A stretch of DNA of 44,954 nucleotides from Olsenella uli. Its GTDB lineage: Bacteria; Actinomycetota; Coriobacteriia; Coriobacteriales; Atopobiaceae. Made by a program: the position numbers and the translations under genes. The notes beneath the pieces are model-generated. The model was not told the DNA's origin. It saw only the letters and a list, made by a program, of their open reading frames with translations, and did not search any database. Positions 1,183 through 25,739 of this stretch are shown here, piece by piece; position 1 is the first letter of the stretch, and each line of letters begins with the position of its first letter. Location: the NCBI RefSeq assembly GCF_016900775.1, contig NZ_JACJKN010000021.1:1-44954 (forward strand), in the 5' to 3' direction.

Positions 1183-2145
1183 CTACAGCGTGACGCCCCT
1201 TCCCAGAAGCGTGCGCACGCCAAGCACCCCGTACCACCGAAGCGGCGAGAGCAGCAGGCCGACCCTGCCCCTCTCCCCCATGAGATCGTGCAGCACCTGT
1301 CCTGGCCGCTCGCTCCCAAGCTTTGAGATGGCCCACTTGAGCCGCAGGCGATACCACGTGAGCCGCGCCGTGCGACGGGCATCCTCGGTGCCATAGCGGT
1401 CCGCATACTCGACAAGGGTGCGACCAAACAGGACCTCGTTTTTGGCGTAGCCCTCGTTGACCTTGGTCGTGGCGGAGTAGCTCGAGCCGCCCTTCTTGAT
1501 ATGACGATAGGCGTTCCACTGCTCTTGGAAGCAGCGGACCCGGCCCATGCAGAGCCAGAGGAAGGCGTTTCGGCGGTCGCCCGGGTAGGAGTCATAGCGC
1601 TTGAGCGCGACGAAGTTGTCCCGCGCGGCAAAATAGTCCTGAGCCCGGCACATGATCGAGCCGCTCTGACCCGGCATGCAGCTGTAGAAGTACTCCTTCC
1701 AGGAGTACTCCTCGTCATGGCACTCCGGGTACTTCTCGCCATTAGGCCGCGAGTCCGCCCCCACGACGAGGCTGTTCGAGGAGACGGCCGTGTAGTCCGG
1801 GTGCGCCTCGAGGAAGTCGGCCTGCTTCTGGAGCCTGCCGTCGAAGAGCATGAAGTCATCGCCCTCGAAGTCGACGAGGTACTTGCCGCGCGTGCGGGAG
1901 TAGAGGTCCTCGCCGTTTGCCACCGACCCCATGTTCTTCTCGCGATAGAGGATCGTGAAGTATGACGGAAGCTCCGGCTCCAGACGCCGGAGGACCGCGC
2001 GCGTGTCGTCAGTCGAGCAGTCCTCCCCGACAAGGACCTCGATCGGGAAGTCCACCCTCTGCGCGGCTATGCTCCTCAGGCACTCCTCGATGTAGTTCGC
2101 ATGGTTGTAGACGGAGACGAGGACGGTGACGAGCGGCTCCTGCAT
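1183..2145 (-). CDS. Family 2 glycosyltransferase
   Basis: A 320-residue cytoplasmic glycosyltransferase. The N-terminal nucleotide-sugar domain shows VTVLVSVYNHANYIEECLRS, then EDCSTDDT near 41-48, with a modified DXD motif EGDD at 94-97. The second half carries tyrosine- and tryptophan-rich acceptor-site sequence, including WNAYRHIKKGGSSYS, common in cell-wall GT2 enzymes. The start is well supported by GGGAGGT six bases upstream; this Shine-Dalgarno overlaps the stop of the upstream aminotransferase, which is only 4 bases away, so the two form an operon. The pairing suggests this enzyme may attach the amino sugar made by that aminotransferase, but this is inference. Confidence 0.8.
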   Translation of the reverse strand: MQEPLVTVLVSVYNHANYIEECLRSIAAQRVDFPIEVLVGEDCSTDDTRAVLRRLEPELPSYFTILYREKNMGSVANGEDLYSRTRGKYLVDFEGDDFMLFDGRLQKQADFLEAHPDYTAVSSNSLVVGADSRPNGEKYPECHDEEYSWKEYFYSCMPGQSGSIMCRAQDYFAARDNFVALKRYDSYPGDRRNAFLWLCMGRVRCFQEQWNAYRHIKKGGSSYSATTKVNEGYAKNEVLFGRTLVEYADRYGTEDARRTARLTWYRLRLKWAISKLGSERPGQVLHDLMGERGRVGLLLSPLRWYGVLGVRTLLGRGVTL

Positions 2146-2149
2146 CGAG

Positions 2150-3262
2150 CTACCTCCCGCAGGACAGGACGATGTCGCAGATCCAGTCCACGTCCTCGAG
2201 CGCGAGGTCCGCGTACATGGGAAGCGTGAGCACCTCGTCCGCCGCGCGCTTTGCCACGGGAGTGCTCGAGGAGTCGAAGCGGCCCTCGTAGCACTCGTAG
2301 TCGCTCACGAGCGGGTAGAAGTACTTGCGCGGGTGGATGTCCTTGGCCATGAGGGCGGCGTAGACGTCGTCCCTCGAGGCGCCGAACGCCTTTGCGTCAA
2401 ACGTGACGGGCAGGTAGGCGTAGTTGTAGCGCACGCCCTCCTGCGGGCGGAACACCCGCACGCCGGGTGCGCCCTCCAGGCGCTCCCAGTAGCGCTCCGC
2501 CACGTGGCGGCGCTTCTCGATCTCCTCGTCCACATGACGCAGGTTGCAGATGCCCATGGCGGCGCAGAACTCGTTCATCTTGGCGTTGCCGCCCACGTAC
2601 TCCACGGACTCGGTGCCCGTGATGCCGAAGTTCTTCCACTGGTCGAGGAGCTTCTTGAGCGCGTGGTCGTGGAAGCAGACCGCGCCGCCCTCGATGGTGT
2701 TGAAGACCTTGGTGGCATGGAAGCTGAACATGGAAGCGTCGCCGTACCTTGCCGCGGAGACGCCGTCACGGAAGACGCCGAACGCGTGCGCGGCGTCATA
2801 GATCACCTTGAGGCCGTGCTCGTCAGCGATGCGCTGGATGGCGTCCACGTCACAGAGGTTGCCGTACACGTGAACGGGCACGATGGCGCAGGTCTCGTCA
2901 TCGATGAGGCGCTCGACGGAGGCCGGGTCGATGGTGAAGTCGTCAGCCTTGATGTCGGCGAAGACGGGCGTGAGCCCCTTGCGCACGATGGCATGCGTGG
3001 TGGAGGCGAAGGTGAAGGGCGTGGTGATGACCTTGCCCTTGAGGCCCATGGCCTCGAAGACGCACTCGAGGGCGTTGTGCCCGTTGGTGAAAAGGGCGAT
3101 GTCGTCCACCTGGAGGTAGCGCTCGAGGTCTGCCTCCAGCTGGTGGTGTTTCTCGCCCATGTTGGTGAGCATGTGCGTCTCCCAGAGTGGCGCGATCTCC
3201 GCCGTGTACTCCTCGAGAGAGGGCATCGAGGAATGGGTGACCCAGATGGGCGTCTTGTGCAT
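2150..3262 (-). CDS. DegT/DnrJ/EryC1/StrS-family nucleotide-sugar aminotransferase
   Basis: This 370-residue PLP enzyme is expected to transaminate a keto nucleotide sugar, normally from glutamate, to make an amino deoxysugar for a surface glycan. The family hallmarks are visible: the cofactor-binding TNGHNALE loop (59-66), DAAHA at 156-160 whose aspartate contacts the pyridine nitrogen, and FHATKVFNTIEGGA with the Schiff-base lysine K185. Length is normal for the family. The dTDP-4-keto-6-deoxy intermediate made by RmlB in this locus is a plausible substrate precursor, which would make it VioA- or FdtB-like, but regiochemistry cannot be decided from sequence. GAGGAG lies eight bases before the ATG. 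It is divergent from the YfhO gene across 109 bases and heads a two-gene operon with the glycosyltransferase at 1183. Confidence 0.88.
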   Translation of the reverse strand: MHKTPIWVTHSSMPSLEEYTAEIAPLWETHMLTNMGEKHHQLEADLERYLQVDDIALFTNGHNALECVFEAMGLKGKVITTPFTFASTTHAIVRKGLTPVFADIKADDFTIDPASVERLIDDETCAIVPVHVYGNLCDVDAIQRIADEHGLKVIYDAAHAFGVFRDGVSAARYGDASMFSFHATKVFNTIEGGAVCFHDHALKKLLDQWKNFGITGTESVEYVGGNAKMNEFCAAMGICNLRHVDEEIEKRRHVAERYWERLEGAPGVRVFRPQEGVRYNYAYLPVTFDAKAFGASRDDVYAALMAKDIHPRKYFYPLVSDYECYEGRFDSSSTPVAKRAADEVLTLPMYADLALEDVDWICDIVLSCGR

Positions 3263-3371: not shown

Positions 3372-5864
3372 ATGATGAACCGATTCAATCTCTGCATCCT
3401 CACGCTCTGCGCCGTCCTCGCGCTGGTGCTGGGCTATCTGATGTCCAGGCGCTATCGCTCTCTCACCGCCCCCTCGCGGAAGGTGGGCAGAGAGGAGCTC
3501 CTCTTCCTCCTGGGCATTCTCCTCATCGGGTCCCTTGCCATCTACGGCGCCTTCCTGCTGGGACACGCGTCGTTTGCCTACCGCGACGTTGGATCGGACA
3601 CCGTGGAGCTGTACGTTCCGTTCTACACGAACGTCATTGAAAGTATGCGAAACGGCAGCTTCGGCGCATGGAACTTCGAGTATGGGCTGGGCGCCGCCGC
3701 CACGAGCTACCAGTCGTGGCTGCTTGATCCCTTCAACGTGGTGCTCATCCCCCTGGGGCTCGTCCTTGGCAGCGAGCGCCTCTCTCTTGCCCTCTCACTC
3801 GTGCAGGTACTCAAGATCGTGGTCTCAGGCCTCGCGTTTGACCTCCTGCTCAAGCGATACTGCGAGACCCCGCTCGGCCGAATCGTCGGGGCCTCCTGCT
3901 TCGCCTTTGGGGGCTTTCTCATGCTCTGGGGCCAGCACTACTGGCTCGGCAGCGTCTACGCGGTATTCGCCGTCACCATACTGCAGTTTGAGCGCCTCAT
4001 GGAGCGGTGGAGCGCCACACGCTTCTGCGGCGTCGCCATTGTCTGCGCGCTCTGCATTGGCTGGAGCGCGTACTGCGGCTTCATGTCCCTGCTCGGCGCC
4101 GCGCTCTACTGCCTGCTTCGCCTCATCCACGCGGTCGAGGGAACGGGGAAGGTGGGCCAGGTCGTCAGAGGGACGCTCCGGCTCTGCCTGCCCGTCCTCT
4201 GCGGCACGCTGCTCTCGGGTGTCGCGCTCATCCCCTATGCGAGCTATCTGCTCGGGGAGACCTCGCGCGTGGCCACCGGCGCGGAGTCGTCGGTCATCCA
4301 GCTCGCGGGCGAGTACCTTCTCGGCTTTGTCCCCCTGCGCTGGGTTCCCATGGTTCTGAGCCGCCTTTTGGGAAGCGGCCTCATCTCGAGCGGCGCCCCC
4401 ATCCCACCGGAGCTTGTGCCTCCCACGGAGCACTTCTCATACGTCAACTGCTATGAGCTGGTTGTTCTTGGCTTCGGCTCGCTTGCCCTCGTCCTTCTGT
4501 CCCAGTTCTTCCACTGGGCGTTCAGGGAGTGCGGCAAGAGGGACCGGACGCTCACCGTCGTCGCAGGCGTCCTCGTGGCGCTGTACTGCTTCAACGAGTT
4601 TCTCCCCGCGCTCTTCAACGTCTTTGTTGAGCCCAAGTACCGCAGCAGCTTCGTTCTGGCGGTGCCCATCTGCATTGCAATGGCCCTGGGATGGGAGAGG
4701 AGAGTCCAGAGTGGGGAGACGTCGCGCGCCGCCCTCCTCGCGGGCGTCATACCCACCGTAGCGATACTCATCTGGTCCGCGGCCAACTCCGTCAACGGAA
4801 GGAGGCTCTGCGCCGCCTATCTCGCCGTCGTGCTCGTCTTCTGCGCGCTTTCTCTTCTCGCCTCCCCACGAGGGGGGCGGCGAATCCCCGCCCTCGAGGG
4901 GCCCGCTGCCCGAACCCTCCTGGCGGGCCTGGTCGTGGCGGGGTGCGTGCTTGACGGGTTCTACGTCACCCAGGTGCGCACGACCTGCACCAGCGATGAC
5001 TTCCCCTCGCGCGAGGCGGCGGGCACACAGGACACGCTCGATGCACTCAGCTGGATCCGCCAGAGCGACGACGGGCTCTATCGCATCGAGAAGACCTATG
5101 TCGAGTGCTGTTCGTACAACGACGCGCTGGTGCAGGGATACTGGGGGGTCAGCTCCTATAACTCGACGTCAGATGGGGACGTCATCGAGTTCTATCGCAC
5201 CTTCTGGCCTGATGCCTACCTGAGCGACTATGCGATCCAGGACTTCAAGCTCGACGCAAACGGCTACTCCCTGCTCTCACAGTTGGGGGTGCGCTACCTC
5301 CTCTCCAAGGGGCCGGTCGAGGACAGCCGCTTCACGCTCGTCAATCAGTGCGGAAGCGTCTACGTCTATCGAAACGAGGGAGCGGTCCCGCTTCTCTTCA
5401 CGAGGGAGGCCCTCATGGGGGAGAGCGATGTTGAGCTCCTCTCCAACGCCGCGGTACGACAGGTGGCCATTGGGAGGGCGCTTGTGGTCCCCGACGACAT
5501 TGCGTCCGCGCATGCGTCCCTGGAGCCCGCGTCTCTCACGTCGAGCTTCTCCGCCAAGGGGGGCGATTGCCTCGTCGGAACTGTGGAGACCACCGCACCC
5601 GCGGTCGCCTGTCTCTCCATTCCCTATACCTCCGGCTGGATCGTCACGATTGACGGCGAGGAGGTCGAGACCTTCCGCGCGAACGTCGGATTCGTGGGCT
5701 TTGAGGTGCCCGGGGGAAGTCACGACATCGAGGTTCGCTACGCCGTTCCCGGATTGACATCGGGCCTTGTGGTCAGCGCCGCCGGCACCGCGCTGACTGT
5801 CATCTCCTGCCTGATTGGCAGGAGAATCGCGCGCAGACGGGAAAATGAGGAAAAGATCGGCTAG
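3372..5864 (+). CDS. YfhO-family polytopic membrane protein (GT-C-type glycosyltransferase)
   Basis: An 830-residue integral membrane protein with a hydrophobic N-terminus, roughly a dozen membrane segments over the first 510 residues, an extracellular globular region around 520-800, and a final membrane helix near the C-terminus. The first long outer loop has YRDVGSDTVELYVPFY (about residues 71-86), matching the acidic loop motif of YfhO proteins, which are GT-C enzymes using polyprenyl-phosphate sugars outside the membrane. The C-terminal YTSGWIVTIDGEEVE and PGGSHDIEVRY blocks are also typical. In Bacillus and Listeria, YfhO relatives glycosylate lipoteichoic or wall teichoic acid together with a GtrB-like enzyme and a flippase; counterparts lie at 10876-12599 here. 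Two ATG codons stand at 3372 and 3375; GGGAG fits the second slightly better. Its stop overlaps that of the convergent flippase in a CTAG. Confidence 0.82.
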   Translation: MMNRFNLCILTLCAVLALVLGYLMSRRYRSLTAPSRKVGREELLFLLGILLIGSLAIYGAFLLGHASFAYRDVGSDTVELYVPFYTNVIESMRNGSFGAWNFEYGLGAAATSYQSWLLDPFNVVLIPLGLVLGSERLSLALSLVQVLKIVVSGLAFDLLLKRYCETPLGRIVGASCFAFGGFLMLWGQHYWLGSVYAVFAVTILQFERLMERWSATRFCGVAIVCALCIGWSAYCGFMSLLGAALYCLLRLIHAVEGTGKVGQVVRGTLRLCLPVLCGTLLSGVALIPYASYLLGETSRVATGAESSVIQLAGEYLLGFVPLRWVPMVLSRLLGSGLISSGAPIPPELVPPTEHFSYVNCYELVVLGFGSLALVLLSQFFHWAFRECGKRDRTLTVVAGVLVALYCFNEFLPALFNVFVEPKYRSSFVLAVPICIAMALGWERRVQSGETSRAALLAGVIPTVAILIWSAANSVNGRRLCAAYLAVVLVFCALSLLASPRGGRRIPALEGPAARTLLAGLVVAGCVLDGFYVTQVRTTCTSDDFPSREAAGTQDTLDALSWIRQSDDGLYRIEKTYVECCSYNDALVQGYWGVSSYNSTSDGDVIEFYRTFWPDAYLSDYAIQDFKLDANGYSLLSQLGVRYLLSKGPVEDSRFTLVNQCGSVYVYRNEGAVPLLFTREALMGESDVELLSNAAVRQVAIGRALVVPDDIASAHASLEPASLTSSFSAKGGDCLVGTVETTAPAVACLSIPYTSGWIVTIDGEEVETFRANVGFVGFEVPGGSHDIEVRYAVPGLTSGLVVSAAGTALTVISCLIGRRIARRRENEEKIG

Positions 5865-7315
5865 GACCGCCCGAGCAGCTCCTTGAGCGTGTTCCGCAGA
5901 TAGGTGAACTCCTCGACCCTGAACAGCAGGGCGATGCCCAGATATGCCACCGCCATCACGGCCACCTGCAGCAGGATCGTGAGGAGGTCGGGAAGGCCGG
6001 CAAGGGGCACCACGAGCGTCATGGCGGCGGCAACAGCAGCCATGACGAACGCGGGCAGGATGTCCCTGATCTGCTCGTGATACGCGTAGCCAATGACGCG
6101 CTTGTTCGGCGAGGCGTTGATGAACGTGCTCAGGACGCCCGAGACCATGTACCCGGCGACGATGAGATGAAGGTCGCGCAGCACGAAGACGGTGAATGCC
6201 AGGATGGCGATGCCCACGATCTTCTTGATGACCTCGAGCCTCAGGAAGAGGTCGCTCCTGCCCATGCCGTTAAGCGTCTGAAGGTTGGTGGTGTGGATCG
6301 GGAGAAGCGCGTACACGAAGCAGTACATCTGCAGAAACGGCACGCAGGGCACCCACGCCTCGCCGAGGACGACCCTCACGATGGGCTCCGCGGCGGCGGC
6401 GAAGAGCGCCATGGCGGGGGCCACGAGGAAGGTGCTCGTCTTGAGCGCGCGGCGGGCGATGCGCTTGACGAGGGCATGGTCGCTCTGGGCGTGGGCGACG
6501 GCGGACAGCATGACGGGCTGGATGGCGCCATCGAGAAGACCCCCGAGCGCGTTGGGATACCGCTTGCCCTGAGACACGTAGCCCAGGTCCGAGCTGGAGA
6601 ACACCTTGCCGATCATGAGGTCGGAGAGGCTCTGATAGCCCTGGTCAAGCAGGCCGGAGGCGAGGAGCTTCCACCCAAAGCGGAAGAGGGTCACCGCTCG
6701 GGCGCGTTCGAAGACGAAGTGCGGCTTCCAGGGAACCTGCAGCGCCAGCACGAGGCACTTGCACCCCTGCTGAACGATCTGCTGGAGCACGAGTGCCCAG
6801 ATGCCACCCCCCGCGAGCGCGACCCCGATGCCCGTGGCGCCGGAGACCACGCCTGCCGTGATGGTGGCCCGAAAGGTCTTGTGAAACTCCAGGTTGCGCG
6901 CGACGATTGCCTCCTGGATGGAGTTGTAAGCGTTGATCACCAGCACCAGCACGAGCACGCGCAGCGGGGTCACGGCAGCGGGCATGGCATAGAAGTCGGC
7001 GACCGCTGGTGCGGCGCAGAAGACGACGGCATAGAGCACCACAGAGGTGGTGAGGCTCATCCAGAACACGGTGGAGTAGTCTCGCTCCGTGGCGTCGGGC
7101 GCCTGGATGATCGCCGTGTTGAGCCCGCTCTGGACGATGACGTTGCCGATGTTCACGAAGACGAGCATGATGGCGAGCATGCCGAACTCGTCCGGGGAGA
7201 GCAGGCGCGCGAGGACGATCTGGATGAGCAGCGTCACGACGGCCGTCCCGCCCTGCTCGAAGAGCTTCCAGAACAGGGACTTGATCGTAGACATCTTGAA
7301 GTCGCTCGTCGGCAC
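5861..7315 (-). CDS. Polysaccharide flippase (Wzx-like, MOP superfamily)
   Basis: A 484-residue membrane protein with about 12-14 helices and the N-terminal signature FWKLFEQGGTAVVTLLIQIVLARLLSPDEFG, typical of the polysaccharide_synt/Wzx branch of the MOP exporters. It probably flips undecaprenyl-diphosphate-linked repeat units of the glycan built by the nearby glycosyltransferases. I choose a GTG start at 7315: it has GGGGGAGG eight bases upstream, whereas the ATG at 7294 has no ribosome-binding site. Residues further upstream (to 7489) are arginine-rich and overlap the promoter of the divergent gene, so they are not coding. The stop codon shares a CTAG with that of YfhO, so the two genes meet with no spacer and no terminator. 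Confidence 0.85.
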   Translation of the reverse strand: MPTSDFKMSTIKSLFWKLFEQGGTAVVTLLIQIVLARLLSPDEFGMLAIMLVFVNIGNVIVQSGLNTAIIQAPDATERDYSTVFWMSLTTSVVLYAVVFCAAPAVADFYAMPAAVTPLRVLVLVLVINAYNSIQEAIVARNLEFHKTFRATITAGVVSGATGIGVALAGGGIWALVLQQIVQQGCKCLVLALQVPWKPHFVFERARAVTLFRFGWKLLASGLLDQGYQSLSDLMIGKVFSSSDLGYVSQGKRYPNALGGLLDGAIQPVMLSAVAHAQSDHALVKRIARRALKTSTFLVAPAMALFAAAAEPIVRVVLGEAWVPCVPFLQMYCFVYALLPIHTTNLQTLNGMGRSDLFLRLEVIKKIVGIAILAFTVFVLRDLHLIVAGYMVSGVLSTFINASPNKRVIGYAYHEQIRDILPAFVMAAVAAAMTLVVPLAGLPDLLTILLQVAVMAVAYLGIALLFRVEEFTYLRNTLKELLGRS

Positions 7316-7384
7316 GCGGACACCCTCCCCCACATGCGGCCGCCCGCGCCGCCGCATACGTCTATTTGGCTCAGAGGCGTATTG

Positions 7385-7390
7385 TATACT
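7385..7390 (+). promoter_or_regulatory. Putative -10 box of the ATP-grasp gene
   Basis: TATACT lies 50 bases before the ATG at 7440 in an AT-richer stretch. No good -35 is present at the expected distance (TTGGCT is only 13 bases upstream), so the assignment is weak. Confidence 0.3.
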
Positions 7391-7439
7391 AGGAAATCGC
7401 AGATACGAGCACCTACACAGCCATCCCCTAGGAGTCAAC

Positions 7440-8588
7440 ATGAACGATAAGCCCCTGTCCCTAGACGTTCTTCTCGCCGACGGGTTCACCGAGCGCTTTG
7501 CCCGGGAGTACCTCGAGATTCTCGAGCGCGAGAAGGCGAGCGGGATGTACGAGCCCGACTATCTTGCCTGGTCGCACGCTCACGGCTTCTGCGCCGAGTC
7601 CGCCTACGCCTACGGCCTCACCGAGGACAACCTCGGTGACTACCTCTCCGACTACGACTACTGGCGCCTCTGGCCGCTCAACGGCTGGGAGCGCATCTGG
7701 ATCAACGACAAGCTCACGCTGAACGCCCTCGTCCAGGATTCCGACCTCGCGCGCTACGTGCCCGCCTACTTCTACTACAGCCGCCCCGAGGGGCTTCTCC
7801 CCCTCTCCGGGAGCGACTACGCCCCCGGGATGGGCGGTCTTCTCGCCTGCCTGCGCCGCGAGGGGGCCTTTGCCTGCAAGCCGAGCAACGGCACCGAGGC
7901 CAACGGCTTCCATAAGCTCGAGTGGCGCGGCGGCGCGTATCGCCTCGACGGCGAGGAGGTGACCGAGGCGGGCGTGCGCGAGTTTGTGAGCACCCACCCC
8001 AACTACGTCTTCACCGAGTTCATCCACCCCGAGGCGAGCCTCGCCGCCATCAACCCGCTCATCCACACCATTCGCGCGCTCGTGATCAACCCCACGGGCT
8101 CCGCCCCCACGCCCACCATCGGCTACCTCCGCTTTGCGCTCGAGGGGGCGGACGAGGGCAACGGCGCCAACTACGTCCCGCCCACCGAGGACCAGATCGG
8201 TGCCTACAACGTGCAGATTGACCTTACAACCGGAGAGTACGGCAACGGCAAGCTCGTCTTTGCCAACCGCGTGGTGGACTCCCCGCACCACCCCACGAGC
8301 GGCGTTCTCGCAGAGGGAACGCTCCCCTACTGGAGCGAGGCCAAGGAGATGATGCGGCGGCTCTCCCTCAAGGTCGGCGCCTGCGAGTACCTGGGCTTCG
8401 ACGCCTGCATCACCGACAAGGGCCCCCGGATCATGGAGATCAACTCCCACTCCGGCATCAAGTACCTGCAGCTCTTCCACCCCATCTGGAAAGATGAGAC
8501 GCTTGCTCCCTACTACCGAGAGAAGCTCGCCGCCATCGACGCGCTGGACGAGGCGGGCCGCGCAAGGAGAAACGCAATCGTGCGCTAG
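7440..8588 (+). CDS. Sugar-transfer-associated ATP-grasp protein
   Basis: A 382-residue soluble protein with the ATP-grasp layout: a helical N-terminal part with DYDYWRLWPLNGWERIWINDKL (about residues 71-92), an ATP-binding lysine and loop in ACKPSNGTEANGFHKL (about 143-158), a TEFIHPEASLAAINPLIHTIRALV block, and a C-terminal metal-binding EINSHSGIK. This matches the ATPgrasp_ST type found in polysaccharide loci. The family probably forms an amide or similar acyl bond on a sugar or carrier; the substrate is unknown. The start is set by AGGAG eight bases before the ATG. It is divergent from the flippase and convergent with the membrane protein at 8684, with a strong hairpin between. Confidence 0.72.
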   Translation: MNDKPLSLDVLLADGFTERFAREYLEILEREKASGMYEPDYLAWSHAHGFCAESAYAYGLTEDNLGDYLSDYDYWRLWPLNGWERIWINDKLTLNALVQDSDLARYVPAYFYYSRPEGLLPLSGSDYAPGMGGLLACLRREGAFACKPSNGTEANGFHKLEWRGGAYRLDGEEVTEAGVREFVSTHPNYVFTEFIHPEASLAAINPLIHTIRALVINPTGSAPTPTIGYLRFALEGADEGNGANYVPPTEDQIGAYNVQIDLTTGEYGNGKLVFANRVVDSPHHPTSGVLAEGTLPYWSEAKEMMRRLSLKVGACEYLGFDACITDKGPRIMEINSHSGIKYLQLFHPIWKDETLAPYYREKLAAIDALDEAGRARRNAIVR

Positions 8589-8615
8589 CTGGCGCGAACG
8601 ACGACGTACTTAGTC

Positions 8616-8657
8616 GGGCGGGCGGCGCAGAGAGTCATTCTCCTGCGCCGCCCGCCC
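8616..8657. terminator. Bidirectional terminator hairpin
   Basis: A perfect 15-bp GC-rich stem (arms 8616-8630 and 8643-8657) with a 12-base loop lies between the convergent stops at 8588 and 8684. There is no clear U-tract on either side, so it may block transcription by stem strength or with Rho. Confidence 0.6.
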
Positions 8658-8683
8658 TGCATATCGACAGCCCCAGGCCACCG

Positions 8684-10732
8684 CTAGACGACGATCTCAT
8701 ACAGGCGCATGTCCCCCTCTGCGAGCAGACACTCGAAACCCGGCGTCTCGTCAGTTACGCCGGTGGCGCCCAGCCAGTCGTCCTTCCCATACCCAAGCAG
8801 GTAGAGCGTCCCGTCCTCGCTGAACGCACTGCCCTTCTCGCCCTGGTCAAGGAGGATCACGTAGCGGATTCCCGCCGCCTCCGCCGCCGCCTCGACCGCA
8901 GGGTCGTTCGCTATGTTATCCAACCCCTTCTGCAGCACGAGAAGGTTGGAATCGCCCTCGGGGCCGAAGGACTTGTACGACACGTTGAGGTCACAGTCGG
9001 CATAGGCGAAGGCGCTTCCGTCAAAGGGGACGTTATAGACCTCGGCCCCGTCGGGAACCATCTGTCGGGCCCTCTCCGCAAAGGCAGCCTCCTGTTCGTC
9101 GAAGGCGTGATTCTCGGTGTTCTGGTAGAGGTCGCGCATCTCGTAACGAACCGCGTCGAACCCCCATGACGTCAGATAGCCGGGGACAAAGCCGAAGGGA
9201 ACGTAGTTGAGCGCCATGATGCCCGCGACGACCGCGGCGGCGAGAGCAGCGCCCGTCCTTTGCGCAATGCGGCCCGAGCGCGCCCCGCCGCGCTCCCCCA
9301 CTTTCCCAGCGCCCCACAGCACCGCCCCAACGATTGCGTCCATGCCTGCGGCGACGAGCGGCACGCAAAAGACGCAGGCCGTCGCCGCAAGGCGATAGTA
9401 GTCGCTGTACCAGAAGCCGGCAATGACGTTGCGCAGCGTCCCGGAGCAGCTAATGGCAACCACATAGAGAAGAAGCAGCAGCGCGTAGGAGCAGGGCACC
9501 CAGCGCGTCTTTGGCCGTGCCAGCAGAACGAGCGCCCCCAGCGCCACGACGGCGGCAATGAAGAACTGCTGGCGCCTAATGACGAAGGAGAATCCCAGAC
9601 CCCATCGAACGGCCTGCCCCACCGAGAGCGGGGTCTCCCGGGGATAGGTGACCACCGCCTGCATGAAGGGGGCATGGGCGAGAACGACCCACGCGAGCGC
9701 GATGAGCACAACAAGCCCACAGGCGGCGCCAACGGAGAGAAGCATGCGGTTCCGGCGGCCCCCCAGGGCATCGAACACCAGCTCCCGGAATCTCCAGACG
9801 CAGTACGGGATGAGAAAGGCGCCCGTAGAGAAGATGGCGTTCGGCTGCGCAAGCGCCATGGCAGCCCCTCCGAGGACGAAGAGCGCCCCGTAGCGCGCCC
9901 GGCGGGCACCGGTTACGCCTTTTGCGCACAGGAGGATGAAGAGCGCCGCCTCCACAGGCATAAGCGAGAACGCCGCGAGGTTGGGGTAGAGCGGCCCGAA
10001 GAGCATGATGCGCCAGGGGAAGAACGCGAAGGAGAGGCAGAGCATGCCGCCGAGCGCCACGAGACGAGGGCGCTCGGGAAAGAGCGTGGCGAGAAGGGCC
10101 ACCGAGCCCACGGGAAAGACGCCGATGATAAAGGCGAGGTTTGCCGCATGCTCTGCGAGCGCGCTCGAGACCCCCATCGTCAGCTCGACCATGGCGGCGA
10201 TCCCATGCCACGCAGACGGGTAGAGCGTCTCGTTGAGCGTCGAGAAGTTCTGCGTCTCGGCAAACATGTGGACCCGCGAGAGGTGCCATGCGTTGTCATA
10301 CGTCTGCTCGAAGGCGTTGGGGTCACCAAGGCTGGACGCATAAACGGCAATGGCGGTGGCTGCTGCCGCACATACGCCAAGCAGCAGGGCCAGTCGAACG
10401 GGCGTAAGGTGCCTCAACGGCCCCGACACCAAAAGGGGCCGCTCGAGCTTCTCGCCAAACCCCAGGGTCTCCTGCCACGTACCACGGCGGGACCTGACCG
10501 CCCACGCCGCCGCGGCTACGACCGTGACGGGCACGGCGAGCGTCACCCAGCCGCAGGGGATCCCGAGGGCCCCATACGCAATCGAGAGCACGCCGTAGGC
10601 GGCAAGCGTCACCAGCGGCGCCGCGCCAAGCGCGAACTCCCAGCGAGCCCCGAGCGCTCTCACGGCCACGAACCCAGGGACGAGCAGGACGGAGATTGCC
10701 AGGAGGGTCGCCAGAAGGAGGTCAGTCCACAT
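8684..10732 (-). CDS. Polytopic membrane protein, DUF6541-like (probable GT-C glycosyltransferase)
   Basis: A 682-residue membrane protein. It starts with a hydrophobic helix (LLLATLLAISVLLVPGFVAVRAL), has about 12 further membrane helices to residue ~500, and ends with a soluble C-terminal domain of about 170 residues. The pattern is that of DUF6541 proteins common in actinobacterial cell-envelope loci. The first outer loop contains QTYDNAWHLSRV, an acidic/histidine/arginine arrangement like that of GT-C enzymes, so a role in transferring lipid-linked sugars at the outer membrane face is likely but unproven. It follows the polyprenyl-phosphate glycosyltransferase gene by 143 bases on the same strand; the gap contains a palindromic repeat. 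Only a weak GAAAGG precedes the ATG. An alternative is an O-antigen polymerase-like function. Confidence 0.65.
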   Translation of the reverse strand: MWTDLLLATLLAISVLLVPGFVAVRALGARWEFALGAAPLVTLAAYGVLSIAYGALGIPCGWVTLAVPVTVVAAAAWAVRSRRGTWQETLGFGEKLERPLLVSGPLRHLTPVRLALLLGVCAAAATAIAVYASSLGDPNAFEQTYDNAWHLSRVHMFAETQNFSTLNETLYPSAWHGIAAMVELTMGVSSALAEHAANLAFIIGVFPVGSVALLATLFPERPRLVALGGMLCLSFAFFPWRIMLFGPLYPNLAAFSLMPVEAALFILLCAKGVTGARRARYGALFVLGGAAMALAQPNAIFSTGAFLIPYCVWRFRELVFDALGGRRNRMLLSVGAACGLVVLIALAWVVLAHAPFMQAVVTYPRETPLSVGQAVRWGLGFSFVIRRQQFFIAAVVALGALVLLARPKTRWVPCSYALLLLLYVVAISCSGTLRNVIAGFWYSDYYRLAATACVFCVPLVAAGMDAIVGAVLWGAGKVGERGGARSGRIAQRTGAALAAAVVAGIMALNYVPFGFVPGYLTSWGFDAVRYEMRDLYQNTENHAFDEQEAAFAERARQMVPDGAEVYNVPFDGSAFAYADCDLNVSYKSFGPEGDSNLLVLQKGLDNIANDPAVEAAAEAAGIRYVILLDQGEKGSAFSEDGTLYLLGYGKDDWLGATGVTDETPGFECLLAEGDMRLYEIVV

Positions 10733-10788
10733 GATGCTTGCCTTTCACGATGTCGCCCGTATCCCTGGGCACCAGCCTGCGACCTGTT

Positions 10789-10858
10789 GTCGAGTGACAG
10801 CTTTTGAACAAACGAGGCCGATTTGGGAGGTCCATCCGTCCGAAAAATGTCACTCAGC
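10789..10858. repeat. ~66-bp dispersed palindrome, copy 1
   Basis: An imperfect inverted repeat: the left arm begins GAGTGACAGCTTTTGAAC and the right arm ends AAAAATGTCACTC, around AAACGAGGCCG and TCCATCCGTCCG. The reverse complement of the element at 25791-25859 aligns with it over its whole length, so the two are oriented copies of one family. It sits in the 143-base gap between the glycosyltransferase ending at 10876 and the gene starting at 10732, so it lies inside or beside a leftward transcript. Confidence 0.65.
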
Positions 10859-10875
10859 CCGACGCGGGACCATAC

Positions 10876-11811
10876 CTACGCCTGCCCCTCGTTCTCGTCC
10901 GTGGTCTCCCGGACGATGAACTGCGGCGTGCCGTTGGCGGGCAGGACGAGGTTGCCCACGTACTCGCCGATGATGCCGAGCGTGAGCAGGATGAGCCCGA
11001 AGAAGAAGAGCAGGATGCAGATGATCGAGGACCAGCCCGCAGGCACGCCCGGCACCACGATGCGCCGCACGAGCACGAAGATGGCGTAGAGGAAGCCCAC
11101 GGCCGCCGAGATGACGCCGATGCACGAGACCATGCGCAGCGGCAGCACGGTGTAGTTGAAGTAGGAGAGCCAGAGCTTGGCGAGCTTGCCCAGGGTGTAG
11201 TTGGAGCTCCCCTGCTCGCGGGCATGATGCTCGATCGTCACGTTGCCGATGCGGTTGGTCATGCGCCCGAAGAGCGCCTCCACGTAGGGATTGTAGTTGC
11301 GGTACTGGACCACTTGGTCGCGCACGGCGCGGGTGATGAGCCAGAAGTTGCTCGTCTCGATGTCCTTGGGGCGGTCGAGGAGCTTCTGGGCGGTAACGCG
11401 ATTGAGCCAGCTCGTGAAGTTCTTGATGGGTCCGTTGGCGGACTGGCGGTAGACTCCGTAGACGACGTCATAGCCCTCCTCCATCTTGCGGATGAGGGCG
11501 GGAATCTGCGAGGGGTGGGTCTGGAGGTCGTCGTCCATGCCCATGACGAGGTCGCCGGTCGCGTGGTTGAGGCCGCACATGATGCCGTTGTGCTGGCCGA
11601 AGTTGCGCATGAGCGTGATGCCGTGCACGCAGGGGTGCTCCTCGGCGAGGCGGCAGATCTCCGCGTAGGTGCCGTCGGGCGAGCAGTCATCCACGAGGAC
11701 GAACTCGCAGTCGTAGCCCTTTAGCCGCTCGAACTCCGCAAGCGTGAGGTCCACGACCTGGCGAATCGAGTTCTCGGAGTTGTAGCACGGGATGACGATG
11801 GAGACGAGCAT
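10876..11811 (-). CDS. Polyprenyl-phosphate glycosyltransferase (GtrB/ArnC-like)
   Basis: A 311-residue enzyme with a GT2 domain (VSIVIPCYNSE at 3-13, DDCSPDGT at 41-48, MDDDLQ at 92-97) and two C-terminal membrane helices at about 227-248 and 260-282, ending in a short cytoplasmic tail. This is the layout of GtrB, ArnC and dolichol-phosphate-mannose-synthase-like proteins, which load a single sugar onto undecaprenyl phosphate at the inner membrane face. The gene is last in the leftward run rmlB, rmlC-rmlD, two SMR-type proteins, then this, and is 21 bases from the second SMR gene. The context indicates that those SMR proteins flip the lipid-linked sugar it makes. The sugar itself is unknown. 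Confidence 0.85.
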   Translation of the reverse strand: MLVSIVIPCYNSENSIRQVVDLTLAEFERLKGYDCEFVLVDDCSPDGTYAEICRLAEEHPCVHGITLMRNFGQHNGIMCGLNHATGDLVMGMDDDLQTHPSQIPALIRKMEEGYDVVYGVYRQSANGPIKNFTSWLNRVTAQKLLDRPKDIETSNFWLITRAVRDQVVQYRNYNPYVEALFGRMTNRIGNVTIEHHAREQGSSNYTLGKLAKLWLSYFNYTVLPLRMVSCIGVISAAVGFLYAIFVLVRRIVVPGVPAGWSSIICILLFFFGLILLTLGIIGEYVGNLVLPANGTPQFIVRETTDENEGQA

Positions 11812-11832
11812 GTGAGACCTTTCCGTTGGCGC

Positions 11833-12186
11833 CTACGCCCCAAGCGCGTAGACCACGATGCCGCAGACGATGAGCGCGAGGGCGAGGAGCTTCCTTGCGC
11901 TCATGCGCTCGTGGAAGATGGTGACGCCGAAGAGGGTCACCCAGAGGTAGCCCGTGGCGTCGAGGATGGGGCCCATGGAGAGCGGGATTCCCCGGTACGA
12001 GAGGACGGAGAGCAGCGTCGCCCCCACGAAGAGCACATACGCGAAGATGACGAGCGGGTTCAGGTACTCGCGCACCACGGAGCCATGCTCGCGCGAGGCG
12101 CTCTTCTTGAGCATGACCTGGGACACCGCGCTCACGAGCACGCCGAGGAGGTTGAGGGCCGCGAAGGCGAGGACGGTGCCATTCAT
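11833..12186 (-). CDS. Four-helix SMR/EamA-type membrane protein, subunit 2
   Basis: A 117-residue protein with four hydrophobic helices: TVLAFAALNLLGVLVSAVSQ, PLVIFAYVLFVGATLLSVLS, PILDATGYLWVTLFGVTIF and LLALALIVCGIVVYALG. The Q-V-M-L-K after helix 1 and the F-H-E-R loop after helix 3 are typical of small multidrug-resistance-like proteins and of ArnE/ArnF. Its ATG overlaps the stop of the preceding SMR gene by four bases (ATGA), which strongly suggests a heterodimer made in equal amounts. Next to an undecaprenyl-phosphate glycosyltransferase, the likely role is flipping of the lipid-linked sugar rather than drug efflux, as with ArnEF. Simple drug export remains possible. Confidence 0.75.
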   Translation of the reverse strand: MNGTVLAFAALNLLGVLVSAVSQVMLKKSASREHGSVVREYLNPLVIFAYVLFVGATLLSVLSYRGIPLSMGPILDATGYLWVTLFGVTIFHERMSARKLLALALIVCGIVVYALGA

Positions 12187-12599
12187 CGCGCCTCACCGTC
12201 CCTCTTGCCCTGCGCGCCCTTCTCGTCCCTCTCGGCAAGCGAGAAGAGCACGACGCCCGCGAGCACGATGAGGGCGCCAAGAACCTTCAGGGGCGACACC
12301 TGTTCCTGGAAGAGAAGCACGCCCCACACGATGCCCCAGAGCACCGTGACCGCCTTGTTGGCGTAGGCATAGGTGAGCGGAAGGCGCTTGATCACCTGCT
12401 GCCACCCGATGGCGTAGACGCCGAGAAGGGCGATCATTCCGCCGTAGCAGGCAATGAAGCCGAGGCTCATGAAGTCGAAGCCCGCGGCGAGCTTGGCGCA
12501 GACGCTCGAGAGCGAGTAGACGGCGAGCATCACGTGAAGGGCGACGAGGGCCCTCGCCCCGCCGCCCCCCTGTGTCCTGGTGTCCCTGTGGGCGTCCAC
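12183..12599 (-). CDS. Four-helix SMR/EamA-type membrane protein, subunit 1
   Basis: About 138 residues with four helices: ALVALHVMLAVYSLSSVCAK, FIACYGGMIALLGVYAIGWQ, YAYANKAVTVLWGIVWGVLLF and VLGALIVLAGVVLFSLA, followed by a charged tail. The F-Q-E-Q loop after helix 3 parallels F-H-E-R in its partner. I use the GTG at 12599, whose G is the last base of the upstream TAG stop, because an ATG at 12530 would cut helix 1 in half and lacks a ribosome-binding site; AAGGGA precedes the GTG. Overlap with both neighbours (one base upstream, four downstream) ties it to rhamnose synthesis and to its SMR partner. It is predicted to form one half of a lipid-sugar flippase. Confidence 0.72.
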   Translation of the reverse strand: MDAHRDTRTQGGGGARALVALHVMLAVYSLSSVCAKLAAGFDFMSLGFIACYGGMIALLGVYAIGWQQVIKRLPLTYAYANKAVTVLWGIVWGVLLFQEQVSPLKVLGALIVLAGVVLFSLAERDEKGAQGKRDGEAR

Positions 12600-14059
12600 T
12601 ATCCCTTGAGCTCCCTCTTGAGCCGCCCGAGGTACTCGGTGAGCTCGTCCTCCCAGTCGCGGGGCGTGAAGCCGGCGGCCTCGAGCTTCGAGAGGTCGAG
12701 CGCCGAGTGCGCGGGGCGCGGGGCGATGGGCCCCGCGGCGTTCGCGTAGTACTCCGCCGTGGAGACGGGCACGACGGCATCGCCGTTGCCGTTGGCGGCG
12801 TCGAAGGTTGCCCGCGCTATGTCCGCCCAGGTGCGCACGGCGCCGGAGCCCGTGCAGTCGTAGGTGCCGTAGGGGGCGCGGCCGTCCAGCAGGTGCATGA
12901 TCGCGGCGGCCATCTGGTCGGCGAAGGTGAGCCGGCCCTCCTGGTCGTCCACCACGGTCACGCGGTCGAGCTCGCCTGCCGCCACGCGGTCGGAGAGGCC
13001 CCACATGGTGCGCACGAAGTTCCTCCCGTCGCCGATGACCCAGCTCGAGCGCAGCACGTAGTGGGCGGGGCAGCCCGCCACGGCGAGGTCCCCCGCCGCC
13101 TTGGACTGGCCGTAGACGGACAGGGGCGAGAGGGGCTCGCCCTCGTCGTGGAGCTCTCGCGCGCCGTCGAAGACGTAGTCGGAGCTCACGTGCACGAGCG
13201 TGATGCCGTGCTCGGCGCAGGTGCGGGCGAGCAGGGCCGGGCCGGCGGCGTTGGCCCTCCAGGCGGCGGCGCGCCCCTCCGGCGTCTCCGCGGCGTCCAC
13301 GGCGGTGTAGGCGCCGCAGTTGATGACCGCGCCGTAGAGCGACCAGTCGTAGCGGTCGTACTGCGCGGGGTCGGAGAAGTCGAACTCGTCGACGTCGCAG
13401 TAGTCGAACGTGCCGGCGTCCGGGCGCGCCTCGGCGAGCGCGCGCACCGCGCGGCCGAGCTGGCCGTTCGCGCCCGTGACGAGCGTCCTCCTGGGCGCCA
13501 TGGGAACCACATCGGCGAGGGGCGGGTGATTCTTATCGGCCTCCGAGAGCTCCGCCTCCGAGAGCGGGATGGGCCACTCGATGGCGAGCTCGGGGTCGGC
13601 GAGGTTGACGAAGGTGTAGGTGCGCTTGAGCTCCGCCGACCAGTGGGCGTCGACGAGGTAGGTGTAGGCGGTGCCGTCCTCGAGCGCCTGGTAGGAGTTG
13701 CCGACGCCCCTGGGCACGTAGATCGCGCGGGAGGGGTCGAGGGTCGCCGTGTAGACCTCGCCGTAGGTGGGACTGCCGGCGCGCAGGTCCACCCAGGCGC
13801 CGAAGACCGAGCCCGTGGCGACCGAGACGAACTTGTCCCAGGGCTCGGCGTGGATGCCGCGCGTGACGCCGCGCTGGAGGTTGTAGCTCACGTTGTTCTG
13901 GACCCAGCGGCGGTCCGGCAGGCCGAGGCCCCCGACCATCTTGGCGCGCTGCCAGTTCTCCTTGAACCAGCCGCGGGAGTCGCCGTGGACCGTCAGCTCC
14001 ACGACGACGAGGCCCTCGATGCCGGTCTCGACTGCCTCGAGGCTCTTCTCGAACTCCAT
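12599..14059 (-). CDS. rmlC-rmlD: Bifunctional dTDP-4-dehydrorhamnose 3,5-epimerase / dTDP-4-dehydrorhamnose reductase (RmlC-RmlD fusion)
   Basis: A 486-residue fusion carrying the last two steps of dTDP-L-rhamnose synthesis. Residues 1-185 are the RmlC cupin: GDSRGWFKE near 26-34, QNNVSYN and the catalytic-base histidine in GIHAEPWDK (H70), and a tyrosine-rich AYTYLVD. Residues 190-486 are the RmlD short-chain reductase: nucleotide-binding GANGQLG at 196-202, the INCGAYTAVDAAE block, HVSSDYVFDG, and the catalytic VYGQSK with Y316 and K320. The junction is read through without a stop, so this is a real fusion and not a frameshift artefact. It lies 9 bases downstream of rmlB and its TAG overlaps the GTG of the next gene. 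Fusion guarantees equal amounts of both activities and may channel the unstable 4-keto intermediate. Confidence 0.93.
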   Translation of the reverse strand: MEFEKSLEAVETGIEGLVVVELTVHGDSRGWFKENWQRAKMVGGLGLPDRRWVQNNVSYNLQRGVTRGIHAEPWDKFVSVATGSVFGAWVDLRAGSPTYGEVYTATLDPSRAIYVPRGVGNSYQALEDGTAYTYLVDAHWSAELKRTYTFVNLADPELAIEWPIPLSEAELSEADKNHPPLADVVPMAPRRTLVTGANGQLGRAVRALAEARPDAGTFDYCDVDEFDFSDPAQYDRYDWSLYGAVINCGAYTAVDAAETPEGRAAAWRANAAGPALLARTCAEHGITLVHVSSDYVFDGARELHDEGEPLSPLSVYGQSKAAGDLAVAGCPAHYVLRSSWVIGDGRNFVRTMWGLSDRVAAGELDRVTVVDDQEGRLTFADQMAAAIMHLLDGRAPYGTYDCTGSGAVRTWADIARATFDAANGNGDAVVPVSTAEYYANAAGPIAPRPAHSALDLSKLEAAGFTPRDWEDELTEYLGRLKRELKG

Positions 14060-14068
14060 GCGCTCCCC

Positions 14069-15139
<1,071 letters not shown>

Positions 15140-15247: not shown

Positions 15248-16150
15248 CTAGTCCTTGTACGGCCGGTCCGGCGCGATCTTGCCCTCTGCCACGGTCCTCA
15301 GGTGCGCGCCGTAGTTGGACTTGCCGTAGCGCTCCGCGCACTCGAGCAGGCGCTCGCGGGAGACCCAGCCGTTCTCGTAGGCGATCTCCTCGGGGACGGA
15401 GACCGGCAGGTCCTGGGCGGTCTCCACCGTGCGCACGAACTGGGAGGCCTCGAAGAGCGACTCCATGGTGCCGGTGTCGAGCCAGGCGTAGCCGCGCCCG
15501 AGCGTCACAACGTCGAGCGTGCCGTCCTCGAGGTACATGCGGTTGAGGTCGGTGATCTCGTACTCGCCGCGGGCCGAGGGGCGCACGCGCGCCGCGTAGT
15601 CGCACACGCGCCCGTCGTAGAAGTAGAGGCCCGTCACGGCGTAGTTCGACTTCGGGTCGGCGGGCTTCTCCTCGATGGAGACCGCGTTGTAGTTCTCGTC
15701 GAACTCCACGACGCCGAAGCGCTCCGGGTCGTCCACGCGGTAGCCGAAGACCGTGGCGCGGCCGCGCCCGGCGTTGGCGGCGGCGCGCCTGAGGTGCCGG
15801 CCGAGCCCGTTGCCGTAGAAGATGTTGTCGCCCAGCACGAGCGCGCAGGCCTCGCCCGCGACGAACTCCCGCCCGATGACGAAGGCCTGCGCGAGGCCGT
15901 TGGGCTCGGGCTGCACGGCGTAGGAGAGCGAGATGCCGAAGTCCGAGCCGTCGCCGAGCAGCCGCTCGAAGTTGGGCAGGTCCGCCGGCGTGGAGATGAT
16001 CAGGATGTCGCGGATGCCCGCCAGCATGAGCGTGGAGAGCGGGTAGTAGACCATCGGCTTGTCGTAGACGGGCAGGAGCTGCTTGCTCGTGACCGTGGTG
16101 AGCGGGTAGAGGCGCGTGCCCGAGCCGCCCGCGAGGATGATGCCCTTCAT
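15248..16150 (-). CDS. rmlA: Glucose-1-phosphate thymidylyltransferase
   Basis: A 300-residue nucleotidyltransferase that joins glucose-1-phosphate and dTTP into dTDP-glucose, the first step to dTDP-rhamnose. The N-terminal [18 protein letters not shown] gives the GGSGTR phosphate loop at 8-13, followed by [20 protein letters not shown]. The metal-binding LGDN and the EKP segment ([21 protein letters not shown]) are the expected family blocks. I start at the ATG at 16150, which has GGAGGG eight bases upstream; residues further upstream lie across the promoter. It is first in the leftward rhamnose operon, and its product feeds RmlB directly downstream. Confidence 0.95.
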
Positions 16151-16189
16151 GGAGTCTCCCTCCGGCGAGTCCTTCTCTGCTATCAGCCC

Positions 16190-16217
16190 ATCATACGACA
16201 TGCACATGCCATGACAA
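16190..16217 (-). promoter_or_regulatory. Putative sigma-70-type promoter of rmlA
   Basis: On the minus strand TTGTCA (16212-16217) and TATGAT (16190-16195) are separated by 16 bases. Transcription would start near 16183, giving a leader of about 33 bases before the rmlA ATG. Confidence 0.55.
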
Positions 16218-25695: not shown

Positions 25696-25720
25696 TATTT
25701 TTGAGCTTGATTCAAAAATA
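25696..25720. promoter_or_regulatory. Candidate TetR operator
   Basis: TATTTTTGA (25696-25704), seven bases, TCAAAAATA (25712-25720): perfect nine-base arms in an AT-rich patch of very GC-rich DNA. It is placed over the -35 zone of the rightward promoter (TATAGT at 25734) in the tetR/exporter divergent region. Size and symmetry suit a TetR dimer. Confidence 0.55.
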
Positions 25721-25733
25721 TTGGACGCGCGTG

Positions 25734-25739
25734 TATAGT
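25734..25739 (+). promoter_or_regulatory. Putative -10 box of the YhgE/Pip operon
   Basis: TATAGT lies 14 bases after the candidate operator. The -35 position (about 25711) falls inside the dyad as TTCAAA. Predicted leader is about 155 bases and includes the palindrome at 25791-25859. Apart from the sites listed, the 331-base region 25571-25901 shows no gene. Confidence 0.4.

Follow-up and report, generated by a model that had tools for sequence, protein, structure and literature searches.

An SMR-type protein pair as the likely flippase of a proposed lipid-linked amino-sugar system in Olsenella uli and related bacteria

It is already known that lipid-linked sugars are handled by a charge-flip-transfer logic and that YfhO proteins act in such systems together with GtcA (PMC7389260, PMC8035078; the papers cited here by PMC number were available as partial texts, and statements resting on them refer to those parts). 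The CsbB-GtcA-YfhO systems of Gram-positive bacteria combine a GT-A charging enzyme with a YfhO protein of the GT-C type, and a 2021 review names flippases of the GtrA and Wzx types (PMC8035078). In the Arn/Pmr system of enterobacteria (ArnB-ArnC-ArnE/ArnF-ArnT), ArnE/F are the SMR pair known to serve a lipid-linked amino sugar (PMC9574504). Here we describe a locus of the gut actinobacterium Olsenella uli (contig NZ_JACJKN010000021.1; the whole analysed stretch of 44,954 nucleotides is referred to as the window), in which genes for two SMR-like proteins (SMR1 and SMR2) are accompanied by genes for a GtrB/ArnC-like glycosyltransferase (GtrB) and a YfhO protein. We consider it fairly likely that the pair flips a lipid-linked 4-amino-6-deoxy sugar which YfhO then transfers, i.e. 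that an Arn-like logic operates inside a Gram-positive multi-component system. This reading draws on sequence comparison and statistics, namely on the gene content of the locus, the obligate pairing of SMR1 and SMR2, their ArnE/F-like features, their co-occurrence with WecE, GtrB and YfhO, and the existence of alternative GtrA-YfhO loci.

Like the Arn/Pmr system, the window genome encodes a DegT aminotransferase, an ArnC-type transferase, two overlapping SMR genes and a GT-C protein, and the cargo would likewise be a 4-amino sugar. The two systems differ in the predicted nucleotide sugar (a WecE-made dTDP-4-amino-6-deoxyhexose versus UDP-4-amino-4-deoxy-L-arabinose, UDP-Ara4N), in the final enzyme (YfhO versus ArnT) and in that the place of the ArnA formyltransferase of Arn is taken by an ATP-grasp protein encoded near WecE or the pair; moreover, the curated Arn cut-offs are not reached (159.3 bits versus 529 for the window GT2 and ArnC, 147.4 versus 631 for the window DegT protein and ArnB). 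The host is a Gram-positive-type cell which, unlike Arn hosts, has no lipid A. The CsbB-GtcA-YfhO systems share the logic of the locus and differ from it in the flippase, which in the window is an SMR pair. The Pgf system of Streptococcus mutans (PgfS, PgfM1, PgfM2, PgfE), which glycosylates proteins, provides the best NCBIfam matches of both the GT2 (PgfS, 175.8 bits, cut-off 500, followed by ArnC) and YfhO (PgfM2, 67.5 bits, cut-off 1500), although these scores are far under the equivalog cut-offs; the word 'flippase' is absent from the available part of PMC5856776 on this system. The Citrobacter youngae system for undecaprenyl-phosphate-linked ribofuranose also unites a four-helix EmrE/ArnE-like flippase (ORF14), a polyprenyl-phosphate enzyme and a GT-C protein; unlike the window pair, ORF14 is a single gene product modelled as an antiparallel dimer, its host is Gram-negative, and the cargo is a pentofuranose derived from phosphoribosyl pyrophosphate (PMC11127046). 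Finally, the lipid-transporter subtype of SMR proteins (ArnE/ArnF) resembles SMR1 and SMR2 in being paired, in lacking the central glutamate, in the opposite charge bias and in its location in a glycolipid operon. In place of the Y/F and S/A/G of the window pair family this subtype often has an asparagine, and all lipid SMRs of the GEBA genome set are singletons (PMC9574504).

The SMR1 gene probably starts with the GTG at position 12599, having one base in common with the stop codon of the RmlC-RmlD fusion gene (the listed open reading frame enters from upstream), and it overlaps the SMR2 gene by 4 bases. Neither protein reaches the EamA cut-off of Pfam (22.0 and 24.2 bits versus 28.2), and SMR2 also misses that of Multi_Drug_Res (18.3 versus 23.7) and narrowly passes that of SLC35F, a family of the same superfamily (21.2 versus 21); the SMR label therefore relies on profile and model tests. 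The SMR fold of SMR1 is judged by sequence alone, its profile matching Gdx-Clo with an E value of 0.0048. Profiles of SMR2 (112-132 residues long in 65 of 80 cases, 57 of which were taken with the window protein into alignment A4) matched no SMR chain among solved structures by sequence. In the structural comparison of the SMR2 model (predicted local distance difference test, pLDDT, 91), the eight top-ranking entries all belong to EmrE/Gdx (Z 9.2-12.6, with 97-104 aligned residues, root mean square deviation, rmsd, 2.5-3.7), unrelated proteins beginning at Z 8.8 and values below about 13 possibly being common among helical bundles; Foldseek gave E 0.025 at best, with a probability of 1.00. Structure prediction, suggested as a check in the first-pass annotation of this DNA, thus returned EmrE/Gdx-Clo as the best matches of SMR2.

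The lysine/arginine (K/R) charge bias is +6 for SMR1 and -6 for SMR2 in the window, and it is opposite in 71 of 79 pairs when the eight N-terminal residues are counted, the start codons of the relatives being uncurated. At the position equivalent to E14, the proton-binding glutamate of drug SMRs (located by counting back from a conserved lysine), Y or F is present in 79 of 79 SMR1 proteins, with Y in the window protein, and S, A or G in 81 of 81 SMR2 proteins; aspartate or glutamate elsewhere in the first transmembrane stretch (TM1) is found in 8 of 79 and 1 of 81, respectively. The conserved TM1 glutamate of drug and guanidinium exporters is therefore lacking from both proteins. SMR proteins of about 110 residues with 15-30% identity would hardly be resolved by a tree. 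We conclude that SMR1 and SMR2 are a paired, obligate, ArnE/F-like SMR that stays below the curated ArnE and ArnF cut-offs, neither of which is reached by either protein.

The distribution of these genes was analysed in 60 genomes, comprising the window genome (2.48 Mb, designated G000, near Thermophilibacter/Olsenella of the Atopobiaceae) and 59 relatives, many of which are drafts, so that single absences may be assembly gaps; about eight distribution tests were run over this set. SMR1 and SMR2 occur in an identical set of 15 genomes, that of the window included, and adjoin in each of them, hence their pairing is not due to chance, and the overlapping pair noticed in the first-pass annotation (whose position 12183 for SMR1 is the stop end of the gene) was confirmed. 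WecE is present in all 15 carriers of the pair and in none of the 45 non-carriers (p = 1.9e-14; the limit of E <= 1e-100 was set after a first look, and all 15 matches pass the curated cut-off). Within the window genus the pair is patchy (7 of 31 genomes), and WecE is found in exactly those genomes, the chance of the same set being 3.8e-7. GtrB matches of at least 200 bits were obtained in 13 of 15 carriers versus 0 of 45 non-carriers, the other two carriers having adjacent GtrBs with 148 and 130 bits, and ATP-grasp matches of at least 300 bits in 9 of 15 versus 0 of 45 (non-carrier G013 has an 81-bit match); both limits were chosen after the scores were seen. YfhO, which had been proposed as the GT-C partner, does track the pair (14/15 versus 8/45, p = 2.3e-7). 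No association with the pair was detected for RmlD (9/15 versus 24/45, p = 0.77; at E <= 1e-25, six carriers lack a match) or for DUF6541 proteins over the cut-off (7/15 versus 18/45, p = 0.76). Of the co-occurrence expected in relatives, that of GtrB, WecE and YfhO was therefore found and that of DUF6541 was not. Overall, the co-occurrence and the ArnE/F-like features support the earlier proposal of a charge-flip-transfer system in which an SMR heterodimer is the likely flippase.

A wider survey covered the best 80 of 222 related stretches, ranging from Coriobacteriia to Lachnospiraceae, Oscillospiraceae and one representative of Coprobacillaceae. These named loci bear L codes and the genomes G codes, some of which coincide (e.g. 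L032 = G022), so the two surveys overlap. Family labels in these loci were assigned with phmmer by comparison with a small collection of locus proteins (matches under 60 bits were left out of the counts), and 'WecE-type' denotes proteins nearer to the locus WecE than to the window aminotransferase, not proteins above a curated cut-off. SMR1 adjoins SMR2 in 78 of the 80 loci; in L038 and L067, SMR2 is placed at a contig end, with no SMR1 in the stretch. Within approximately 10 kb of the pair, we identified genes for GtrB in 55 of the 80 loci, WecE-type proteins in 41, ATP-grasp proteins in 36, YfhO in 27, RmlB in 18, DesI-like proteins in 16, RmlD in 12 and DUF6541 in 6. At least two of the four partner classes (GtrB, aminotransferase, ATP-grasp, GT-C) lie within 5 kb in 54 of 78 loci and at least three in 34, and the order WecE-type, GtrB, short-chain dehydrogenase/reductase (SDR), ATP-grasp, SMR1, SMR2 is recurrent (L063, L086, L103). 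Among the 14 relative loci, a GtrB-like gene is situated near the pair in 13, the remaining one (G016) being cut by a contig end, with GtrB on another contig. The distance between WecE and the pair is at most about 4 kb in ten carriers, seven of which also have an ATP-grasp gene there and four of which (L023, L024, L028, L030) possess RmlA and RmlB, their stretches containing no RmlC-RmlD match. It is 20-24 kb in G022 (about 20 kb, on the same contig and together with ATP-grasp) and G009, and in G000, G012 and G016 WecE is encoded on a different contig. In the clade of the window the set is split: most members have the pair and GtrB close to Rml genes, WecE lying elsewhere. A second locus of G012 contains YfhO, WecE, ATP-grasp-ST and ATP-grasp, and homologues of the window ATP-grasp protein are encoded near the pair, YfhO or WecE in L039, L056 and L143.

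Other surroundings of the pair were also observed. In L072 and L085, whose gene orders are partly alike, and in L068, L074, L077, L078 and L088, no recognised partner gene is located nearby. In several Lachnospiraceae (L051, L084, L104, L106, L109) the pair lies near genes for proteins of about 760-1320 residues with little or no YfhO match, which possibly represent other GT-C families.

The best evidence that the pair is a flippase is genomic, since it occupies the place of GtrA in sister YfhO loci. Of the eight genomes that have YfhO and lack the pair, five carry the genes of GtrB, YfhO and GtrA grouped within about 5 kb (L137-L141; the GtrB gene of L141 is interrupted by a stop), which is the CsbB-GtcA-YfhO arrangement. 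As for the others, G007 has GtrA approximately 5.5 kb from YfhO, with no GtrB seen there, and the fetched stretches of G015 and G057 contain no GtrA. The GtrBs of four GtrA-YfhO loci fall into one clade (7 rows, 100/95) apart from that of the window, together with a Thermophilibacter provencensis paralog encoded beside GtrA and RmlA. No GtrA-type flippase is encoded in the window locus, the only PF04138 match of the genome being placed on contig C13 (31.7 bits, cut-off 26.1). The SMR pair and GtrA look like alternative flippases. A wholesale replacement of GtrA by the pair was rejected, GtrA being equally common in carriers (12 of 15) and non-carriers (34 of 45); the exchange is limited to YfhO loci. 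Upstream in the same polysaccharide locus of T. provencensis (L017:2978-7204, genome G022), we observed genes for GtrA, RmlA, a GtrB paralog 27% identical to that of the window and a 611-residue protein, and this locus may harbor two lipid-sugar systems with different flippases.

The charging enzyme is predicted by homology and its DDD motif (at 93) to be a GT-A polyprenyl-phosphate glycosyltransferase. It aligns with the solved ArnC in the PDB over residues 3-303, the hydrophobic C-terminal part included (E 1.3e-41), as well as with the sll0501 GtrB over residues 3-301, and is 31% identical to E. coli ArnC and 95% identical to the GtrB of T. provencensis. Its C-terminal part contains two hydrophobic stretches.

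The probable nature of the sugar is suggested by WecE. The WecE protein of the window genome, encoded outside the window together with an ATP-grasp protein (C15:26206-28609), shares 67% identity with E. coli WecE (376 columns) and exceeds the equivalog cut-off of NF008687 (632.5 versus 375 bits); according to this family model, its product is dTDP-4-amino-4,6-dideoxygalactose (dTDP-Fuc4N). RmlA and RmlB of the window both score over the equivalog cut-offs of their TIGRFAM models, and the RmlB product is the common precursor of dTDP-rhamnose and dTDP-Fuc4N. Since the co-distribution of WecE with the pair is exact and RmlD is unassociated, Fuc4N is a better candidate than rhamnose, at least for Coriobacteriia. 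The similarity of the ATP-grasp proteins to carboxylate-amine ligases and to ATP-grasps of the purine pathway makes an N-acyl or aminoacyl sugar possible; a cationic amino sugar would resemble Ara4N, the cargo of ArnE/F. Neither the window ATP-grasp protein nor YfhO matched a solved structure by sequence. In L023 (10473-12799, by family search) and L024 (10496-12786, by similarity) the pair is followed by genes for an SDR and a LysA-like pyridoxal-phosphate decarboxylase, a hint that the ATP-grasp ligase might use an uncommon amino acid or amine.

Taken together, the following pathway may be envisaged. RmlA and RmlB of the window and WecE of contig C15 would produce dTDP-Fuc4N, whose amino group could be acylated by the ATP-grasp protein encoded beside WecE, and perhaps also by that of the window. 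The GtrB/ArnC-like enzyme would load the 4-amino-4,6-dideoxyhexose onto polyprenyl phosphate, a putative antiparallel SMR1-SMR2 heterodimer would flip the lipid-linked sugar from the inner to the outer leaflet, and a GT-C protein, most likely YfhO, would move it to a wall or surface polymer. By analogy, the pair probably plays in a Gram-positive-type cell the role that ArnE/ArnF play in E. coli.

Several observations weigh against this reading. One carrier of the pair (G056) has no YfhO match, and 12 of 78 named loci are without any of the four partner classes at a distance of up to 5 kb. The pair-linked GtrBs fall into several clades, of 33 rows with the window (100/99), 18 rows (100/100; other Firmicutes and coriobacterial rows) and 4 rows (100/100), and one of them (L098) falls in the GtrA-linked clade; because they do not form one clade, different lineages may have different cargos. 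The best NCBIfam match of SMR2, ArnE, is weak (33.8 bits, cut-off 92), and so is the top score of the SMR2 profile among E. coli SMRs, again for ArnE (25.9 bits). In 8 of 79 pairs SMR1 has a charge bias of 0 or -1, and without the N-terminus the SMR1 bias is positive in only 31 of 79. The operon of the window clade contains RmlCD and not WecE, so that local gene order favours rhamnose, and the WecE product might equally feed a cytoplasmic transferase.

Given this gene order, an alternative is that RmlA, RmlB and RmlCD supply L-rhamnose, which GtrB links to polyprenyl phosphate, the pair flips and a GT-C protein transfers. The order RmlB-RmlC/D-SMR1-SMR2-GtrB, with overlapping genes in the window, is repeated in L032, L033 and L035, and the first-pass annotation had used the RmlC-RmlD overlap to tie the module to sugar-nucleotide synthesis. 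The distribution of RmlD described above shows that this tie is local, and rhamnose was rejected as the common cargo; furthermore, the 14-row clade of the window GtrB (100/100) mixes RmlD-adjacent and WecE-adjacent rows, and polyprenyl-phosphate-rhamnose was not found in the literature searched. We therefore regard rhamnose as unlikely and the RmlC-RmlD fusion as probably a neighbour, not the source of the flipped sugar. It is slightly less likely still that the sugar, e.g. dTDP-4-amino-4,6-dideoxyglucose, is made by the DesI-like aminotransferase of the window instead of WecE: this enzyme is encoded in the same locus, has DesI as its best family model and belongs to a Wzx-DegT-GT2 block that accompanies the pair in the window clade, but it is found near the pair in only the 16 named loci mentioned above, its score is under the DesI cut-off, and its gene adjoins a different GT2 gene, whose product could be the user of its own product. 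Rather doubtful, and yet the most plausible of these alternatives, is the assignment of the final transfer to DUF6541, with YfhO, itself predicted to be a GT-C transferase by its Pfam match, acting in another pathway. The DUF6541 gene is next after GtrB, as also in L035 (where the copy is merely 31% identical), and its weak model (pLDDT 63, five sequences) has a GT-C-like fold, matching AftA (Foldseek E 3.4e-4, probability 1.00), the oligosaccharyltransferase subunit STT3 (Z 17.9, 421 residues aligned, rmsd 8.9) and ArnT (Z 15.8, 381 residues, rmsd 7.2); Y145, D146 and H150, invariant in the five sequences, are located in or beside a low-confidence stretch after helix 111-135. However, DUF6541 does not track the pair, as YfhO does, and its positions in carriers are scattered: on the opposite strand beside the pair in G035, 10-12 kb away in G009 and G016, 64 kb distant in G022, and on a contig other than that of the pair in G012 and G053. 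Hence, the GT-C candidacy that the first-pass annotation had given to this protein stood as far as the fold is concerned, and its linkage to the pair did not. As a fixed partner of the pair DUF6541 was rejected by distribution and position; judging from the model, it may be an exchangeable transferase.

Two further alternatives concern the pair itself. It is very unlikely that SMR1 and SMR2, instead of being a flippase, serve GtrB as an activating or anchoring accessory, as GacJ and WpsB do for GacI and WpsA. This role is known for small membrane proteins that adjoin a GT-A enzyme in streptococci and lactococci (PMC10821137), but the SMR2 model has the fold of an SMR transporter, and WpsB has three helices and a partner glycosyltransferase without predicted membrane segments (PMC10821137), whereas the alignment of the window GtrB with ArnC extends through its hydrophobic C-terminal part. 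An exporter of drugs, guanidinium or polyamines that happens to reside in a glycan locus is extremely improbable, even though the best NCBIfam match of SMR1 is MdtJ (25.6 bits, cut-off 122), followed by ArnE (21.1) and ArnF (19.5, cut-off 99), and its profile finds among E. coli SMRs MdtJ (33.2 bits) before ArnE (29.1, which some drug-type SMRs equal with 29.7), these scores being weak throughout. Contrary to this explanation, the E14-equivalent position is without an acidic residue in 160 sequences, the co-distribution with WecE is exact, and none of 20 drug-type SMR loci of the 60-genome set has any of the partner families within about 10 kb, although these control loci are not independent, being mostly one Gdx-type gene of one genus (18 of 23 proteins match Gdx best). 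The E14-equivalent residues and the control loci also argue, indirectly, against the clustering with drug exporters that the first-pass annotation had named as a refutation. The flipping of a lipid-linked 4-amino-6-deoxy sugar is the reading that we prefer.

The named genes of the window (Table 1) are all open reading frames at the coordinates given, as checked in its sequence. The order on the minus strand is RmlA, RmlB, RmlC-RmlD fusion, SMR1, SMR2, GtrB-type GT2 and DUF6541, with gaps of 159, 9, -1, -4, 21 and 143 bases, respectively; beyond DUF6541, on mixed strands, are the genes for ATP-grasp, Wzx, YfhO, the DesI-like DegT aminotransferase and a second GT2. A scan for promoters and terminators in the window gave nothing above chance. 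The Wzx-DegT-GT2 block is conserved in the window clade (L032-L036, L038, L041, L043, L047). The fusion of RmlC and RmlD in a single gene is common to the near relatives; the two are separate in L041 and L043, and neither is present in the stretches of the others. Outside this module, a large putative secreted repeat protein is encoded at 20245-22506 (plus strand), with aromatic-glycine repeats and a C-terminal part resembling NlpC/P60 by eye, and a similar repeat is visible at L153:3092-4264 (contig C15 of G000). Two adjoining long membrane proteins, resembling by eye the YhgE/Pip family, are encoded at 25701-30718 (plus strand).

Table 1. Genes of the putative lipid-linked sugar locus in the window
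Feature	Coordinates	Strand	Evidence
Second GT2, directly beside the DesI-like gene	1183..2145	-	
DegT-family sugar aminotransferase, DesI-like	2150..3262	-	Pfam 298.3 bits; TIGR04427 DesI 277.9, cut-off 650
YfhO-family GT-C, candidate final transferase	3372..5864	+	Pfam YfhO 189.6 bits, cut-off 28.5
Wzx-type (MOP) flippase	5861..7294	-	Polysacc_synt_3 321 bits; likely start 7294
Sugar-transfer associated ATP-grasp (PF14397), candidate acyl/amide ligase	7440..8588	+	58.8 bits, cut-off 31.4; likely start 7440
DUF6541 protein, GT-C-like fold	8684..10732	-	Pfam 481 bits, cut-off 29
GtrB/PgfS/ArnC-type polyprenyl-phosphate glycosyltransferase, GT-A	10876..11811	-	NCBIfam, PDB match to ArnC, DDD motif
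SMR2, four-helix SMR subunit	11833..12186	-	ArnE best NCBIfam match, model, negative K/R bias; predicted N-out/C-out
SMR1, four-helix SMR/DMT subunit	12183..12599	-	GTG start, Gdx-Clo profile match, positive K/R bias; predicted N-in/C-in
RmlC-RmlD fusion	12599..14059	-	Pfam dTDP_sugar_isom 143.8 bits and RmlD_sub_bind 219.1 bits
RmlB, dTDP-glucose 4,6-dehydratase	14069..15088	-	TIGR01181 474.7 bits, cut-off 365.1
RmlA, glucose-1-phosphate thymidylyltransferase	15248..16207	-	TIGR01207 468.4 bits, cut-off 360.65

The literature searched (titles and the beginnings of abstracts, subscription papers being largely outside) yielded no account of an SMR pair within a YfhO system or alongside WecE, and the terms 'SMR' and 'ArnE' are absent from the available text of the 2021 review (PMC8035078). 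A more far-reaching form of our proposal is that of a Gram-positive-type counterpart of Arn, in which dTDP-Fuc4N aminoacylated by ATP-grasp, a GtrB using dTDP-sugars, an ArnE/F-like heterodimer and YfhO would yield a cationic wall sugar, the pair adding a third flippase class to GtrA and Wzx across Coriobacteriia and Clostridia; this is possible, and we put it forward tentatively. The flippase step is the least proven step of glycan decoration in Gram-positive bacteria. A pair that is found in GtrA's place beside YfhO, and that travels with one amino-sugar enzyme, offers a handle on cargo specificity, as the same family of final enzymes would operate with two unrelated flippases. A further prediction is that common gut bacteria contain a lipid-linked amino sugar and carry a surface modification that alters charge and would be traceable by mass spectrometry.

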